Assembly (NCBI GenBank): GCA_029248525.1
Contig: JAQWJE010000008.1
Span: 124,001 to 188,000, forward strand
DNA length: 64,000 nucleotides
Source: Candidatus Binatia bacterium
Lineage (GTDB): Bacteria > Desulfobacterota > Binatia > UBA12015
Direction: 5' to 3'
Part shown: piece after piece, positions 33,856-41,354 of the stretch
Layout of the letters: each line of letters begins with the position of its first letter
How positions within the stretch are numbered: position 1 is the stretch's first letter
The notes under the pieces: generated by a model
The model's database searches: none
What the model was told of the DNA's origin: nothing
Seen by the model: the letters and a program-made list of their open reading frames with translations, nothing else
Program-made: the position numbers and the translations under genes

Positions 33856-35064
33856 ATGCGCTTGTCGCAGAGACTGCAGGCTGTAGCGCCGTCGGGGACC
33901 ATGGCCGTGACCAGCGAGATTTTTCGTTTGCGAGCGTCCGGTGTCCGCGTACTCAATTTCGGAGCGGGAGAGCCTGATTTTGAAACTCCCGAGCGGATCG
34001 GTGCGGCTGCGCGCCGGGCGATCGCGGACGGCCAGACACGCTATACGCCCGCAGCGGGGCTCCCCGAGTTGCGGGAGGCAATCACGGCCAAGATGTGGCG
34101 CCTGAACCGGCTCGAAATCTCACCGCAGCAGGTGGTCGCGACGACTGGGGGCAAACACGCGCTATCGCTTGGCCTGATGGCGCTGCTCGATCCGGGGGAC
34201 GAGGTCCTGATCCCGGTGCCATTTTGGACCAGCTATGGTGCTATGGTGCGATTGGCGGGCGGTACGCCGGTGTTTTTGCCGACCGCCGCCGAAGATGGAT
34301 TCAAGCTCCGCCCCGACCAGCTGGCCGCAGCCATCGGTCCGCGCACCCGTGCCCTTTTGCTCAACAGCCCCTCGAACCCGACAGGCGCGGTCTATTCAGC
34401 AACCGAGCTTCAATCTCTAGCCGACGTGATTGTTGGCGCGACGAACGTCAGTCTGTTGAGCGACGAGGTTTACGAGTTGCTGCACTTCGATGGGCCCCGA
34501 CCGCCGCATATTCTTACACTGCGTCCGGAACTCCGAGCAAAGTCCCTGATCATTAATTCGGTTTCGAAAAGTTACGCGATGACGGGTTGGCGAGTTGGCT
34601 ATGCGGTGGGCCCCGAGGCGTGGATTGAGGCCATGATTACGCTGCAGGGACAGACCACCACGGGGACCAGTTCGATCTCTCAGGTAGCCGCGGCCGAGGC
34701 CCTGCGAGGTGGTTCCGATGAGCAGGCGATGGTGGCGGAATTCCGTCGTCGCCGCGCCTTTACCTGTGAGCGGTGGCACGATTTGTCGGGCGTCTCTCTC
34801 GTGGATCCGGGCGGGGCATTTTATGTCTTTCCCGATGTTCGTCGATTGCTCGAGGGTTCCCCGAAGGGCCGCGAGGTCGGAACTACGGCAAGGCTTTGCG
34901 AGCAACTGCTCGCCGAGGAGCGCGTGGCCTTGGTCCCCGGGGAGGCCTTCGGAGCGCCCGGGTATGTTCGGATGGCTTATACCGCCTCGCTCGCGGATCT
35001 CGAGGAGGGGATGTCCGGCATCAAACGGATGGCTGGACGGCTTGCGACGGGCGTTGCCGGCTAG
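33856..35064 (+). CDS. Pyridoxal-phosphate aminotransferase, aspartate aminotransferase type
   Basis: 402 residues, fold type I aminotransferase of the I-gamma type. It shows NFGAGEPDFETPERI, TRYTPAAGLPELREAI, NSPSNPTGAVYS, SDEVYELLHFDG, the PLP Lys K238 in SVSKSYAMTGWRVGY and the C-terminal Arg in PGYVRMAYTAS. Likely acts on aspartate or a broad set of amino acids. It is followed tail-to-tail by the haem protein gene with a 4-base overlap, so no terminator fits between them. Confidence 0.9.
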   Translation: MRLSQRLQAVAPSGTMAVTSEIFRLRASGVRVLNFGAGEPDFETPERIGAAARRAIADGQTRYTPAAGLPELREAITAKMWRLNRLEISPQQVVATTGGKHALSLGLMALLDPGDEVLIPVPFWTSYGAMVRLAGGTPVFLPTAAEDGFKLRPDQLAAAIGPRTRALLLNSPSNPTGAVYSATELQSLADVIVGATNVSLLSDEVYELLHFDGPRPPHILTLRPELRAKSLIINSVSKSYAMTGWRVGYAVGPEAWIEAMITLQGQTTTGTSSISQVAAAEALRGGSDEQAMVAEFRRRRAFTCERWHDLSGVSLVDPGGAFYVFPDVRRLLEGSPKGREVGTTARLCEQLLAEERVALVPGEAFGAPGYVRMAYTASLADLEEGMSGIKRMAGRLATGVAG

Positions 35065-37877
35065 TTCTGGCGCGCCAGGGGGACACGCGTTCCCTGATAG
35101 TTGAGAATGGCTTCTTCGATTGGTTCTGCGGGCTTCGCCGGATCCGATACAAACTCCAGAGCAAGACCTAGAGCATCACTGGTCCGGAAGCTTCCGTCAG
35201 TCATTTCCTGAAGATCTGTCGTAGGTCCATTGACCATGCCGAGGGAGAGTTGGGTTCCGGATCGAGTGACTTCCAACTGCATCGCGATCAGCGGGATTCC
35301 GTAGTTTCCGAGGTAACGATCATATCGATGGGGCCCGTCCAGGGCGAGCAGGTCGGCTACCGTCCAGGGGCTCTGCCGGTGGCGCGTGATCTCGCGAATT
35401 CTCGCCACGGTTTGCGCTGTGACGGGCTCGTCGGCGTGACCGAAGCTGCGCCGCAGGAAGGTGAGGATGGCTGCAATCGCTTCATCGTCAAGCACCGCAG
35501 GATCGTCATGGCTCGGCATGTTGAGATTCCAGGTTTCGTCGTCGATTTGAATTGGGCCGGTGAGTCCGCCAAGGACGATCCGAATGAGCCACTCGTCAGA
35601 ATCTCTCACCCATGCAGCGCCGACCAACGACGGTGCCTGACCGGGGATACCGCGTCCCGAGGAGCCGTGGCATGAAGCGCAGACGTCTTGATAAAGTTCT
35701 CCGCCCTTCCGGAATCGTTCGAGCTCGTCGGACGAAAGTGGTCGAGCTCCGCCGGGCCGCGGATCGCCCGGCCAGGTGAAGTGCGAGCGAATCGGGCGAA
35801 TCTCATCGCTCTCGTCTGCCAGCAGGGCATGCGGCCCTGCGAGCGCGATACGACTCGCCCCCGGAAGTCGCTGCGCTGCTGCGATTCCGTTGACCAAGGC
35901 CGTCCGCTTTGCTTTCTGGTCGAGGCTTTGCACGCGATCGAGGAGCTGGACCGTAGCCGGTCCGGGGCTCGGCGCGGCGCGAATGGAGGCAAATGCGGCC
36001 GTCGTCACTTCGGTGAGGAAGCGGTCGCGGGCCTCATTCGTCGTCGCGGCCTCATCTTCCTCCAGCAAAATCTCCAATGCTTGCGATTCGAGTCCGTCTA
36101 GTCCTGAGAGGACTGCGTGTGAGAGGAGCGGGTCGGCCCCCCGGCCGAGCTGCAGCATCTGTGGGAGGGGCCTTTCGGCCGGGGGCAGGGCCCCCATGGT
36201 CAGGACTGCCTGCAGCCGAACCCGTGGATCAGGGTCCTCGTCCGCGCGGCGGAGCAGCTCCCGTCGCTCGGCCTCGGTGCCGTCGAGCATGGGCTCGAAG
36301 GCACGCAGCGCCGCGACTCGAACGGCAGGTTGCGCGTCGGCCAGACCCTGACGAAAGGTTGCTTGATCGAGCTTGTGGAGCAGCGACAGCGTCCACAGAG
36401 CATGGATACGCCCCGTGGACGAAAAATTCTCCAGGGCGCGAAGCGAGGCAATGGTTTCAGGAGCATCTCGGTAGACCAGTTGCCGCTGGGCGCGATCCCG
36501 CACCCAGCCGTTGGGGTGGTCGAGCCCGGCTAACAGTTCCGCTGTGGTGGTCATCGGTGGCGGGACGTAATCGATGGGCCGATCCTCTCGGACGACCCGC
36601 CACAGACGGCCGCGGGCCCCCGAATTCTCGAGCCCCTGGTCCCGAATGTATTCGTCGAGGTAGTCCGAGACCATTTCCGCATGCTGGACGATGCCGCGAT
36701 ACATATCGACAATATATAGAGCCCCGTCGGGGCCAATCTCGGCATCGACGGGCCGGAAGCGCTCATCGGTCGAGACCAGAAATTCTCGCTCTCCAAAGCT
36801 TTCATCGGGGTAGAGCTTGTGAACGGCCTGCATCTCGGTGCCATCAGTCTGAATCTCGAAATGTGTGACCAGATTGCCTGCAGATTCGGGAACAAAGGCG
36901 TCCCCTTTGAACTCGGGGCCGAACTGGTCGCCGCGCTGGATGGCTACGCCGCTGACTCCCGTGGGGCCGCGTTGGCGACCGTCGGGGCGCAGCGTGCCGC
37001 GCAGATAGGCTCGGTTGAGGCCGGGAGCTACGCGAATGCCGTGCACCTCTTCCCCATCGGTCAGAGGTAGATTGACTCCGGGCTTGGACCATGAGGCGGC
37101 CGTCGCAGCCTGGCGCATGGCATAGCTACCCGGGATCGCATCGGCGTAAAGAAAGCCGGAGTTGTGGTTGTAGTAGAGTCGCCCTTCATCATCCTGCGCA
37201 AGGCCCCATTGCCCCCGGGCCGGTGTTTGCTCCACCACCAGGCCGTCCGGATCCAGGCGGAGTCGCCGCCGAGATTTCGCATTATAGATCCAACCGTCGA
37301 TGCCGGCGAGCAAGCCGTTTTCCTGATGCTCCGGATTGTTGCCGACCATGGCGTATTCGCCGAGGCGCTCCCGAATGGCGCAGGTGCCTGTATTCTCCGG
37401 ATCGCGACACAGCCAAAGGGTGCCGGGCTCGGCGACCAGAACCCCCTCGGGCAGGACGCGGACGGCCCGTGGCATGACCAGGCCGTCGAGGTAGACCCGG
37501 CTCGTATCCATCTGCCCGTCGTGATCGGTGTCCTCGAGGATGACGATTCTACCGGAGGGCTCGTCTTCCCCGCTGGCGGCAAGGTCGCGCATATAACCAC
37601 GCATCTCGACAACGTAGAGACGGCCCTGATCGTCCCAGTCGATGGCGACGGGTTCGGCGATCAGGGGTTCGGATGCGACCAATTCGACCCGGAATCCCGG
37701 CGGGGCCAGCAAGGTGGCCTGTTCCTCTGCCGGGCTCAGGATCGGAGCTGGCAGGATTTTGATGCGGGACAGAATTTCTTCCGGGGAAGGTCCCAGCCAG
37801 AGACGAAAGGCCGCATAGCCGCCGACCCCGAGAAGCAGGGCGCCGATGACGGTATATTTCAAAACTCGCCGCAACAT
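35061..37877 (-). CDS. PVC-type membrane-anchored haem-binding dehydrogenase: beta-propeller, HEAT-like repeats, cytochrome c
   Basis: About 938 residues. An N-terminal anchor (MLRRVLKYTVIGALLLGVGG) is followed by a six-bladed propeller (about 60-450) with repeated GRIVILEDTDHDGQMD-like turns, a HEAT-like helical region (about 470-650), then a mono-haem cytochrome c with CASCHG at 733-738, and a short C-terminal beta domain. This layout recalls the TIGR02604-type proteins abundant in Planctomycetes, thought to oxidise sugars or other substrates in the periplasm. The ATG at 37877 has GGA seven bases upstream; one at 37907 adds ten residues. The substrate is unknown. Confidence 0.82.
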   Translation of the reverse strand: MLRRVLKYTVIGALLLGVGGYAAFRLWLGPSPEEILSRIKILPAPILSPAEEQATLLAPPGFRVELVASEPLIAEPVAIDWDDQGRLYVVEMRGYMRDLAASGEDEPSGRIVILEDTDHDGQMDTSRVYLDGLVMPRAVRVLPEGVLVAEPGTLWLCRDPENTGTCAIRERLGEYAMVGNNPEHQENGLLAGIDGWIYNAKSRRRLRLDPDGLVVEQTPARGQWGLAQDDEGRLYYNHNSGFLYADAIPGSYAMRQAATAASWSKPGVNLPLTDGEEVHGIRVAPGLNRAYLRGTLRPDGRQRGPTGVSGVAIQRGDQFGPEFKGDAFVPESAGNLVTHFEIQTDGTEMQAVHKLYPDESFGEREFLVSTDERFRPVDAEIGPDGALYIVDMYRGIVQHAEMVSDYLDEYIRDQGLENSGARGRLWRVVREDRPIDYVPPPMTTTAELLAGLDHPNGWVRDRAQRQLVYRDAPETIASLRALENFSSTGRIHALWTLSLLHKLDQATFRQGLADAQPAVRVAALRAFEPMLDGTEAERRELLRRADEDPDPRVRLQAVLTMGALPPAERPLPQMLQLGRGADPLLSHAVLSGLDGLESQALEILLEEDEAATTNEARDRFLTEVTTAAFASIRAAPSPGPATVQLLDRVQSLDQKAKRTALVNGIAAAQRLPGASRIALAGPHALLADESDEIRPIRSHFTWPGDPRPGGARPLSSDELERFRKGGELYQDVCASCHGSSGRGIPGQAPSLVGAAWVRDSDEWLIRIVLGGLTGPIQIDDETWNLNMPSHDDPAVLDDEAIAAILTFLRRSFGHADEPVTAQTVARIREITRHRQSPWTVADLLALDGPHRYDRYLGNYGIPLIAMQLEVTRSGTQLSLGMVNGPTTDLQEMTDGSFRTSDALGLALEFVSDPAKPAEPIEEAILNYQGTRVPLARQN

Positions 37878-37974
37878 CGCTGTTCCGTTTTTAGTCGATC
37901 CTGACATGGATGCAACGCATCGAACCAGGCTGCCGTTTGCCGATTGAGCTGTGCGATGATTGGGGTGAGACGCG

Positions 37975-38688
37975 ATGGGCAGTTGGAAATTTCTTGTCGG
38001 GGGGAGTCTGGCCCTGGGCCTGCTGGGCGTTCTGGTGCTCGCAGCGGCATGGTTCTGGCGGGCCCGACTCTACCGAACTCTTTTCCATCCTGTGGTGACG
38101 GCGCGTCAGTCCAGCTTTTTTCGAGAATTCCCTGTGCGCGCCGGAGACGTTGTCTTTTTGGGGGACAGCCTCACCAGTCAGGCGCGATGGGGCGAGCTCT
38201 TTCCCGGTGTGGCGGCGCGAAATCGCGGAATCTCCGGAGATACCACCGCGGATGTTCGCGCCCGGCTGCGAGAGATTACCTCGGCCGCACCAGCGCAGAT
38301 CTTTTTGATGATCGGAACAAACGACCTCGGGTTGGGTCTCTCGGAGGAAGTTGTGCTGCAAAATATTGACGCGATTCTCGAAGAGATCCGCATCGAGAGT
38401 CCACGGACCGAAGTTTTTGTGCAGACGCTCCTGCCGCGCAGCCGTGGCTATGCTGCCCGAATTCGTTCGGTGAACGAAGGCCTGATCGCATTGGCCGACC
38501 GCAGGGGATTGCGCTGGATCGATGTGGGCGGCGCGATGAGTTCGGCGGAGGGTGCGCTTCGAGCGGATCTCACCGGTGATGAGCTACATCTTCTGGGTCC
38601 GGGCTATGAAATTTGGAAAACAACGCTGGCGCCCTGGGTGGGGCCGTCGCCGCGTCCGCTTGCCGGAAAAACTTTGGAGGAGCAATGA
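37975..38688 (+). CDS. SGNH/GDSL hydrolase, membrane-anchored
   Basis: 237 residues. A signal anchor spans about 5-28. All blocks are present: GDSLTSQ (S65 nucleophile), NRGISGDTTADVRARL, MIGTNDLG (Asn) and GDELHLLGPGYE (Asp/His). The family includes esterases, lipases and acetyl-esterases of cell surface glycans, so an extracytoplasmic location is likely. The next gene starts within its stop codon (ATGA), which implies joint expression with the duplicated unknown protein. In contrast to the SGNH-like protein at 4167, this one is fully equipped. Confidence 0.88.
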   Translation: MGSWKFLVGGSLALGLLGVLVLAAAWFWRARLYRTLFHPVVTARQSSFFREFPVRAGDVVFLGDSLTSQARWGELFPGVAARNRGISGDTTADVRARLREITSAAPAQIFLMIGTNDLGLGLSEEVVLQNIDAILEEIRIESPRTEVFVQTLLPRSRGYAARIRSVNEGLIALADRRGLRWIDVGGAMSSAEGALRADLTGDELHLLGPGYEIWKTTLAPWVGPSPRPLAGKTLEEQ

Positions 38689-39980
38689 AGCAACAGGGAA
38701 CTGACTACGCGGGACCGTTTGATCCGACTTGGCATTTGGGCTCGCTAAGCCGGCAGGCGTTGGCTGAATTGGGTCGCGAATACCTCCTGCATGGTCACTT
38801 GCAGGACCGGGTCGGTCTGCCGTTGGTATTTTTTGGTTGGGGTGAGCCGGCGATGACAGAGCTATCGATTGAGGAGTGGATGGGCGCGAGCCCGATCTAT
38901 TCCGAACGCATGCAAAAGGCACTTGGTTTTGTCGGCCATGATGTGGGCACGGTTTTTAAAAATCTGCAGTTCGATATCGGAGCGCCTCACCAGTTCATGG
39001 ACTTCCAGTTTCGACTGGATACACCCGAATATGGCGAGTTCTGGTTGGCGCATTGCGGTGCCCTGATGGATGTCGAACCACATGGGGAGGAGCGGGTACG
39101 GCGGATGTGCCATGACGTGGAGGACCCCACCTTTGATGCAACGGCCGCGGCGACGCACCCGCGCATGAAGATGCGCGCCATCCATCGCCCGCCGCGGATT
39201 CCGGATTTCCGGATGCCGCATTGTCGCTGGAAGATTTTTATCGACGAGACTGGCGAGGCCAGCGAGCCTCACTCCAACCTGGCCCTGTTGCGTCAGTCGA
39301 AGGCGGCCCAATTGGTTCTGGAGCGGCCGAGCACGGATGCCGAACCGGGCGGGTGGGCCGATTACTCCGGAGCGTTCGACCCCGGATTCCAACTGGAGGA
39401 TCTCAGCCATAGCGCAGGTGTCCTCGTCCTCGATGAGATAGCGCTGCAGAGTCATTTGTTGGCACGAGCGCTGCATCTCTCGGCCGAGCAGCGGTGGGGA
39501 GCCGAAGCCGCCTCCCGGTTGGCGGATGAACAATGGGAAGGCATTGCCGCACTGACGGCGCTGCGCATGATGCGGGCCTTCCGCATTGTGGACGAGGATG
39601 CTGCGGCCATTGCCAAGTTGTTTCAGGTACACCCGACATTTCACCCGAGAGCCTATGTGGACTTTCGCGTGTCGATGCCCGCGGCCGATCGCGTGCGCAT
39701 CGCGTTCCATGATTCTCCGGCGTTTGACGAGTCTGACGATTGTTCCTGGTTTGCGGGTTTGCGGCCCGAGGGGCATCCGGCGCTGGATGCGATCGCACAG
39801 GTGGTGAACCCCCTGGCGCGACTGACTCCGGTTGAGCCTTCCGGGGGCGCCCGTTTCCAGTGGGATATTGTGGTCGATCCGAGTGCCGATCCGGTCAAGC
39901 CACCCCGGTCTCTCGCGTTGGGGCAAATCAGCAAGGGCGCCAGCTTTCAGTTCGAGAGACGTCGGCTGCCGAGGGCCTGA
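38685..39980 (+). CDS. Unknown protein built from two homologous halves
   Basis: 431 residues, no signal peptide, function not recognised. It contains an internal duplication of about 215 residues: DYAGPFDP (7-14) versus DYSGAFDP (226-233), PHQFMDFQF (101-109) versus PRAYVDFRV (321-329), FDATAAATHP (150-159) versus LDAIAQVVNP (367-376), and RWKIFID (181-187) versus QWDIVVD (392-398). Each half ends with a beta-strand-rich segment. The ATG at 38685 overlaps the SGNH stop and has GGAGG four bases upstream, so expression with that hydrolase is likely. I cannot suggest a chemical role. Confidence 0.75.
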   Translation: MKQQGTDYAGPFDPTWHLGSLSRQALAELGREYLLHGHLQDRVGLPLVFFGWGEPAMTELSIEEWMGASPIYSERMQKALGFVGHDVGTVFKNLQFDIGAPHQFMDFQFRLDTPEYGEFWLAHCGALMDVEPHGEERVRRMCHDVEDPTFDATAAATHPRMKMRAIHRPPRIPDFRMPHCRWKIFIDETGEASEPHSNLALLRQSKAAQLVLERPSTDAEPGGWADYSGAFDPGFQLEDLSHSAGVLVLDEIALQSHLLARALHLSAEQRWGAEAASRLADEQWEGIAALTALRMMRAFRIVDEDAAAIAKLFQVHPTFHPRAYVDFRVSMPAADRVRIAFHDSPAFDESDDCSWFAGLRPEGHPALDAIAQVVNPLARLTPVEPSGGARFQWDIVVDPSADPVKPPRSLALGQISKGASFQFERRRLPRA

Positions 39981-40037
39981 TTTGTCGAGGAATCGTCTGG
40001 CTTGTTTCTGGTGGTAGCGAGGTCTAAGTACATCCCC

Positions 40038-40385
40038 ATGCCCAAGACAAAGACAATCGACTGGATCTACGAGCGCAAAGGTTGAACTTCCTGTGTTCGT
40101 GCTTCTGCGTTCGTAGAAGCCCAAAAGATCACCATCAAGGAAACCGTGCCTGCAAGTCGGAAGCTGCAAGCGGAAGACGCTGAGAAAATCGCTCGCGCTT
40201 CCCGGAAAATGATTGTCATGAAGGGCCGCAAGGTCGAGGAGTTCCAGGTCGGGGCTGCGACGACTCCCGAGGCGGTCAGCGCCATGCTGGGCAATACCGG
40301 AAATATGCGGGCACCTTTGCTGCGGGTAGGCTCTCTGGTGTTGGTTGGTTTCAATGAAGAGGTCTACAGCGAAGCCCTGTCCTGA
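40038..40385 (+). CDS. Predicted selenoprotein: ArsC/Spx-like thioredoxin-fold protein with U-T-S-C motif
   Basis: 115 residues when the in-frame TGA at 40083-40085 is read as selenocysteine. The reading MPKTKTIDWIYERKG-U-TSCVRASAFVE continues in the same frame to 40385. The U16-T17-S18-C19 stretch matches the CxxC of ArsC/glutaredoxin-like proteins, and the remainder ends with GNTGNMRAPLLRVGSLVLVG and FNEEVYSEAL, a thioredoxin-fold pattern with a cis-Pro loop. A SECIS-like hairpin follows at 40101-40120. The alternative, two short pieces with a GTG at 40146, would leave the redox motif untranslated. The ATG has GAGG about 14 bases upstream, which is distant; a GTG at 40011 is in frame. Function is probably thiol redox chemistry. 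Confidence 0.72.
40101..40120 (+). promoter_or_regulatory. Putative bacterial SECIS element in the selenoprotein mRNA
   Basis: GCTTCTGC-GTTC-GTAGAAGC: an 8-bp stem (40101-40108 with 40113-40120; seven Watson-Crick pairs and one G-U pair) and a four-base loop whose first base is G. It begins 15 bases after the TGA, with 23 bases between TGA and the loop. This fits the known rules for bacterial SECIS hairpins recognised by SelB: a short stem near the UGA and a G at the start of the apical loop. The stem lies inside coding sequence, as in other bacterial selenoprotein genes. Confidence 0.6.
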
Positions 40386-40421
40386 TCCTCGATCAAGCCA
40401 GTCCCCTCGATTTCGGCAGGC

Positions 40422-41354
40422 ATGCAATTGAACGGGGAGGACTCGGCCCGGTCCGGTATCGTTGCTGGTCTGCTCGCCTACCTTTGGTGGGGCCTTGTGA
40501 CAGCCCTCTATTATCGTGAACTCGATCAAGTTCATGTGCTCGAGTTGATTTCCTGGCGCGCTCTCGGTGGACTCCCGATCTGCCTGGCGATTCTGGCCAT
40601 GCCCCCGGGGCTCTCTCGGCTCCGGGAAGCAATGCGCTCCCCGGGCGCACTTCGCATGCATGGCGCGTCGGTCGCGATGTTGGTGGGGAATTGGTTCGTT
40701 TTCATCTACGCGGTGCGCGAAGAGCGGTTGACCGAGGCCAGCCTCGGCTACTTCCTGAACCCGCTGGTATCCGTGCTGCTTGGACGCTTTTTTCTCGGGG
40801 AGAAACTGGTCGGCCGGCAGGGATGGGCTCTCGGGTTGGCCGGCGTCGGGGTCGTCGTGTTCGCCGCTTCCCTGTGGCGAGGCAGCGGAAATTTTCTCGA
40901 GGGTTTCGTCTGGATTCCTCTTGTTCTTGCTCTCTCATTCGGATTCTACGGCCTGCTGCGCAAGCAGATGACTGCGGACTCGATTACAGGTTTGACGATC
41001 GAGGTCCTTTTGATCTTCCCCTTTTTTCTGGGGATAGAGTTGTGGCTGATGCGCGAAGGCGTGGCTGCGATCGGGCGCGGGGACCCCGGGTTGGACTTCC
41101 TGCTCCTCGCCGGGGGGCTGGTCACGGTTGTGCCGCTGGCGCTCTTCGGGTTTGCCGCGCAGCGCCTTCGGTTGAGTACGGTGGGGCTGCTGCAATACGT
41201 CAGTCCGACTTGCCAATTTATTCTGGCGGTCCTGGTCTTCGGAGAGCCGCTTACGGCAGGCCGGTTGATAGCGTTTCTTCTGATCTGGAGCGCTTTGGGG
41301 CTCTACAGCAGGGAGTCGTGGCTGGTCGCGCGGCTTGGCGCCGCGCGACCCTGA
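40422..41354 (+). CDS. rarD: EamA/RarD family transporter
   Basis: 310 residues, about ten membrane spans. It has the RarD marks: an early YLWWGLVTALYYREL block, a WRxLxxLP-like element, ASLGYFLNPLVSVLLGRFFLGEKL, a QMTADSITGLTIEVL segment and TVGLLQYVSPTCQFILAVLVFGEPL near the end. The EamA superfamily exports metabolites; the RarD substrate is unproven. It starts 36 bases after the selenoprotein and ends 14 bases from the oppositely oriented lipoprotein gene. Confidence 0.9.
   Translation: MQLNGEDSARSGIVAGLLAYLWWGLVTALYYRELDQVHVLELISWRALGGLPICLAILAMPPGLSRLREAMRSPGALRMHGASVAMLVGNWFVFIYAVREERLTEASLGYFLNPLVSVLLGRFFLGEKLVGRQGWALGLAGVGVVVFAASLWRGSGNFLEGFVWIPLVLALSFGFYGLLRKQMTADSITGLTIEVLLIFPFFLGIELWLMREGVAAIGRGDPGLDFLLLAGGLVTVVPLALFGFAAQRLRLSTVGLLQYVSPTCQFILAVLVFGEPLTAGRLIAFLLIWSALGLYSRESWLVARLGAARP

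Follow-up and report, generated by a model that had tools for sequence, protein, structure and literature searches.

The window, by which the whole analysed stretch of 64,000 nucleotides is meant, possesses on its forward strand a frame that starts with ATG at 40038, meets an in-frame TGA at 40083-40085 and stays open past it until a TGA stop at 40383-40385, exactly as the original prediction had described. The main interpretation of window 40038-40385 (+), which holds, is that it encodes an ArsC/Spx-like selenoprotein of 115 residues with selenocysteine (Sec) at residue 16 and a SECIS hairpin. The features of the locus are as follows.

40038..40385, + strand: selenoprotein coding sequence, 115 residues and a TGA stop, with ATG at 40038 and a match to NCBIfam NF041106
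40083..40085, + strand: in-frame UGA, read as Sec16, first residue of U-T-S-C; TGA is kept at the aligned codon
40092..40094, + strand: Cys19, presumed resolving residue of the UxxC site; Cys in 107 of 108 loci
40101..40120, + strand: SECIS hairpin within the coding sequence, recognised by covariation, synonymous-codon fixation and folding
40308..40316, + strand: R91-A92-P93, cis-Pro-type motif of the Trx/ArsC fold, with R at P-2 and Ala at P-1, in 49 of 49 aligned sequences

The ATG at 40038 is supported by matched starts in the relatives, which begin at the corresponding place. In a plain ORF listing, the sole ORF shown for the gene is a GTG-started one of 79 amino acids (40146-40385), which is the truncated gene that had been expected. 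The further claim that the gene would be missed in routine annotation stands for plain ORF calling, but probably not for a pipeline using NF041106. The upstream ORF of 455 amino acids (window 38613-39980) ends 57 bases 5' of the selenoprotein gene and matches no Pfam family at an E value of 0.01 or below. Window 35061-37907 encodes a protein of 948 amino acids in which DUF7133, HEAT repeats and a cytochrome c domain are present. A long open frame of 599 codons also runs antisense to the gene (38862-40661, - strand), and it could be taken for the real gene, with the + strand frame open by chance. For this antisense ORF, Pfam gave nothing at E values up to 0.01, whereas the + strand frame scores above the cut-off of a curated family; that match refutes the antisense gene, whose probability is negligible.

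The read-through protein scored 102.5 bits against NF041106, 'ArsC family (seleno)protein' (ArsC_rel_Se_1), whose cut-off is 85. The match spans residues 7-110 of the protein and positions 1-107 of the 107 in the profile, and a six-frame search with the same model gave the window 94.9 bits. As the read-through lies above the cut-off, the gene belongs to this curated selenoprotein family, and its xxxC site begins with Sec, reading UTSC, as in 73 of the 108 loci compared (window included). The window protein resembles the other members in its full-length match, in its UxxC with Sec at the family position and in its in-frame SECIS, and differs from them in being divergent, with at most 59% identity to other rows of the tree and a long end branch of 0.77. 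The tree left its row unplaced: no starred set that contains at most half of the rows includes it. No functional difference between the window protein and other NF041106 members was seen. The original prediction had called the selenoprotein new-looking, which is not supported: the family is already catalogued by a dedicated NCBIfam model, and the available part of a 2026 review lists NF041106 as 'Arsenate reductase-like protein', a UxxC selenoprotein family (PMC13188914), while that of a 2022 review lists an ArsC-like UxxC selenoprotein (PMC9312934). Earlier entries, in the available parts of the respective papers, are an arsenate reductase UxxC group (cd03032) in 2008 (PMC2398784), an ArsC-like family in 2006 (PMC1794560) and a UXXS arsenate reductase in 2005 (PMC1088965). 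NF041106 was found named in the full text of one paper, and no functional study was seen among the open-licence papers listed. The gene is a new, divergent member of a known family, and adds one more such member to NF041106.

Conservation of the TGA was analyzed in a first set of 108 loci, composed of 27 other loci of the phylum, the best 80 of 525 relatives from a contig scan and the window itself. TGA was found at the aligned codon in all 107 other loci, giving U in 108 of 108 with the window, and the last residue of the xxxC site is Cys in 107 of the 108 (window included). The exception, L042, reads U-A-S-S and is without the resolving Cys. Further same-class loci, in two sets of 17 and 9, have TGA at the site in 26 of 26 cases. 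Over all sets, the window counted, TGA is present in each of the 134 loci read; some genes are represented twice (e.g. L036 and L060). Counted by genome, a match above the NF041106 cut-off was present in 28 of 395 genomes of the phylum sample, with one TGA in each of the 28, and in 14 of 39 close relatives. In the class, 30 of 148 genomes showed such a match with one TGA each, located at the site in 30 of 30, window included. The only same-species genome seen, the draft G492 (63% complete), has selA and no copy of the selenoprotein gene.

In alignment A3, composed of 49 of the 108 sequences, the residues W9, Y11, R13 and G15 upstream of the TGA are conserved in 49 of 49. The 79-residue ORF given by plain ORF listing would allow the TGA to be a true stop, or else to result from a sequencing error or lesion, the intact gene being this GTG-started ORF or the locus a pseudogene. 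Against this stand the TGA at the same codon in every locus read, the conserved residues before and after it, the RNA-level constraint directly 3' of it and the Sec machinery of the genome. Such a reading is refuted unless all genomes with the TGA share one artefact, and is highly improbable.

No Cys version above the NF041106 cut-off was found in the phylum sampled or among the 80 best of the 525 contig relatives. A Cys form would probably score no worse with the NF041106 model than a Sec form, so the search was presumably not biased against Cys forms. The original prediction had proposed Cys at the site in homologues as support; this was borne out at the superfamily level, in the C-x-x-C of Spx, but not within the family, where all members above the cut-off have TGA. 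Twenty-four stretches of viral contigs matched a pattern, and relatives were encoded by none of them. Cys homologues exist for most selenoprotein families, and Cys forms of NF041106 may exist further away, beyond the phylum and the 80 relatives covered. Tentatively, and with somewhat more doubt than confidence, NF041106 could be regarded as a Sec-obligate family, an old and widespread clade of the ArsC/Spx fold with a selenium-requiring chemistry. Such chemistry would cause the gene to be lost along with the Sec machinery rather than to revert to Cys. What merits following up is the Sec-only pattern. With TGA in all 134 loci read, the family is well suited to testing why certain proteins retain Sec while others exchange Sec and Cys freely.

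The hairpin after the TGA was found as originally read, with a stem of eight pairs including one G-U (40101-40108 with 40113-40120), a GTTC loop (40109-40112) and a spacer of 15 bases between TGA and stem. Folding of the 48 nt from the TGA alone gave -14.3 kcal/mol, with a z of -3.56 against 200 dinucleotide shuffles, and a stretch of equal length taken from the terminal TGA gave a z of 0.11. Of the 1524 TGA triplets that the window contains when both strands are counted, 27 are followed by a comparable hairpin, so that the hairpin alone would prove little. That it is more than chance is argued by homology, namely the NF041106 score and a TGA that every member read has at this codon. Compared with synonymous recodings of its own peptide, the window hairpin taken alone is not significant (stem p 0.095, energy p 0.34). 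A search of the region with Rfam gave four sub-threshold matches, none of which is SECIS or a related family.

Constraint on the hairpin was analyzed in the clade of the window, using 78 distinct sequences for covariation and 82 genes for synonymous codons; from both sets, repeated segments and 24 of the 27 same-phylum loci were excluded, the latter belonging to another clade of the phylum which has a slightly different stem register and is uncounted in the SECIS statistics. Stem cells are paired in 87.8% of cases across the 78 sequences, compared with 81.7 in shuffled sets (0 of 500 as high) and 20.7-42.8 when the stem is slid by 1-3 columns. Double changes occur in seven of the eight stem pairs against a shuffled mean of 2.3 (0 of 500), the stem covariation score is 0.127 against 0.060 (0 of 500), and there are 14 further pair types against 11.4 (6 of 500). 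Pairing is weak at two positions of the stem, in columns 21-36 (54 of 78 sequences) and 26-31 (42 of 78). At three positions the window has both bases changed relative to the most frequent pair and remains paired, with T-A for C-G at columns 24-33, T-A for G-C at 21-36 and C-G for A-T at 26-31. Synonymous codons in the stem are nearly fixed across the 82 genes. The Ser codon is TCC in 74 of 75 compared with 17% of 380 Ser codons elsewhere in the same genes, Lys is AAG in 70 of 70 (68% of 739 elsewhere) and Leu is TTG or CTG in 72 of 72 (47% of 624 elsewhere). In 104 of the 108 loci the segment folds better than the mean of its recoded same-peptide versions (average -10.2 against -6.8 kcal/mol), but taken one by one no more than 19 (by stem) or 15 (by energy) of the 108 reach p 0.05 against synonymous recodings. 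The loop position is G in 100 of the 108 loci, compared with 70.6 expected from codon bias. The hairpin lies shortly 3' of the UGA, opens its loop with G and is conserved as RNA, as is expected of a bacterial selenoprotein.

The genome (4,270,227 bases, 98.92% complete) was searched for the sel genes, as the original prediction had suggested, and possesses tRNA-Sec, SelA, SelB and SelD, the full set expected where a bacterial selenoprotein is made. The tRNA-Sec scored 70.1 bits (gathering score 47) and has a UCA anticodon; selB (332.6 bits) and selA (540.6 bits) lie on contig C35, 66 bases apart on the same strand, and like selD (265.5 bits) they score above their cut-offs. In the class, selA was found in 29 of 30 carriers compared with 94 of 118 non-carriers (one-sided p 0.017), the carrier without a match being G406, a draft in 450 contigs with 87% completeness. 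In the phylum, selA was found in 26 of 28 carriers (p 0.44, not significant), and the two carriers without a match, G300 and G375, are both drafts. Co-occurrence is uninformative at the phylum level because 355 of the 395 genomes have selA. A genome-wide reassignment of UGA was also considered and rejected, as the same gene ends in TGA and the aligned residue of Spx is Cys. The selenoprotein claim of the original prediction is upheld by the NF041106 score, the conserved TGA and the covariation and codon fixation of the SECIS, and confirms here that reading raw sequence can pick out a true selenoprotein.

The structure predicted by AlphaFold2 on the 49-sequence alignment (pLDDT 87.8, pTM 0.76) has a predicted Spx/ArsC-like fold, a variant of the thioredoxin fold. 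Its best structural match is the ArsC-related protein 3gkx (Z 9.2, rmsd 2.5, 87 aligned), followed by Spx 3ihq (Z 9.1, rmsd 2.6, 87 aligned), in agreement with the ArsC/Spx-like character first proposed; the arsenate reductase 3f0i and the glutaredoxin cGrx1 follow at Z 7.6. In profile comparison Spx ranks first (E 3.9e-07). Residues of the window protein were compared with those of Spx and 2m46. The U-x-x-C is aligned to the C-x-x-C of Spx. U-T-S-C, noted in the original prediction, occupies codons 16-19, and for the downstream cis-Pro-like loop that this prediction also noted, the motif R91-A92-P93 is invariant in the 49 aligned sequences. Resemblance to the UXX-star (seleno)proteins (NF041212) and glutaredoxin is limited to a small thioredoxin fold, an N-terminal Uxx/Cxx site and weak profile matches; these proteins are shorter and without the ArsC-type helical insertion, and the window protein scores 19.6 bits against NF041212, far under the cut-off of 66.

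The likeness to Spx/MgsR (TIGR01617; PDB 1z3e and 3ihq) in fold, profile and position of the C-x-x-C would fit a proposal in which the same selenoprotein is an Spx-like redox-sensing regulator, its Sec16/Cys19 pair acting as a non-catalytic switch that alters RNA polymerase binding. Although Spx is among the best matches, the general Spx/MgsR model gives the window protein 28.4 bits, far under its cut-off of 75.05, and the protein has Sec for Cys and the R-A-P of NF041106 where Spx has R-R-P, which makes such a regulator unlikely. An arsenate reductase like the glutaredoxin-dependent ArsC, but with Sec, is less probable still. The protein shares the fold class of ArsC (TIGR00014, PF03960), matches 3f0i, which is annotated as arsenate reductase, and shows a weak match to Pfam ArsC, which at 21.2 bits stays below the cut-off of 24; the reviews, in their available parts, name the family 'arsenate reductase-like'. 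Against these points, the 15 NCBIfam families listed with E values of 10 or less do not include TIGR00014 (arsC). E. coli ArsC has its substrate-binding Arg94 just before the cis-Pro. The 49 aligned sequences all have Ala there, which speaks against arsenate being bound by such an Arg. The gene neighbourhood also speaks against it. When 548 neighbour ORFs over 81 loci were clustered, the largest clusters reached 7 of the 81 loci, no conserved partner gene was found, and the window was in none of the 22 largest clusters listed, which are unannotated. Since no neighbour is conserved, a Sec/Cys oxidoreductase acting on its own is most likely.

The locus very probably encodes an NF041106 selenoprotein with an Spx/ArsC-like fold, in which the UGA at 40083-40085 is read as Sec under the direction of the SECIS and a Sec/Cys redox cycle is proposed; a predicted standalone Sec-based thiol-disulfide oxidoreductase is most likely. 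In the cell, SelB with Sec-tRNA-Sec would read this UGA as selenocysteine, its readthrough being directed by the hairpin 15 nt downstream within the coding sequence, and the second UGA of the gene, at 40383, which has no such hairpin, would terminate translation. The selenolate of Sec16 would attack a disulfide, a sulfenic acid or a similar oxidised substrate. Cys19 would then resolve the adduct into a selenenylsulfide, which a cellular thiol donor could reduce again.

Alongside NF041106, a second ArsC/Spx-like group was seen, composed of L049, L156, L157, L158, L162, L166 and L167. Its members have a TGA at the U-x-x-C site, an R-R-P cis-Pro motif and their own hairpin after the TGA, and score far under the NF041106 cut-off. 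Sub-threshold NF041106 rows with one TGA numbered 19 of 31 in the class and 5 of 8 in the phylum, and a clean reading of the group was obtained from 6 of 12 fetched stretches. When three members were compared with NCBIfam, two fell slightly short of the TIGR01617 cut-off and one slightly exceeded it, and none passed a Sec model. The group may correspond to the UxxC group (cd03032) of PMC2398784, going by the available part of that paper. One further locus, L048 (in G311), has a stop-free reading resembling L049, its matched stretch being without TGA. This sister group of L048 and L049 may hold Cys forms, unlike NF041106.
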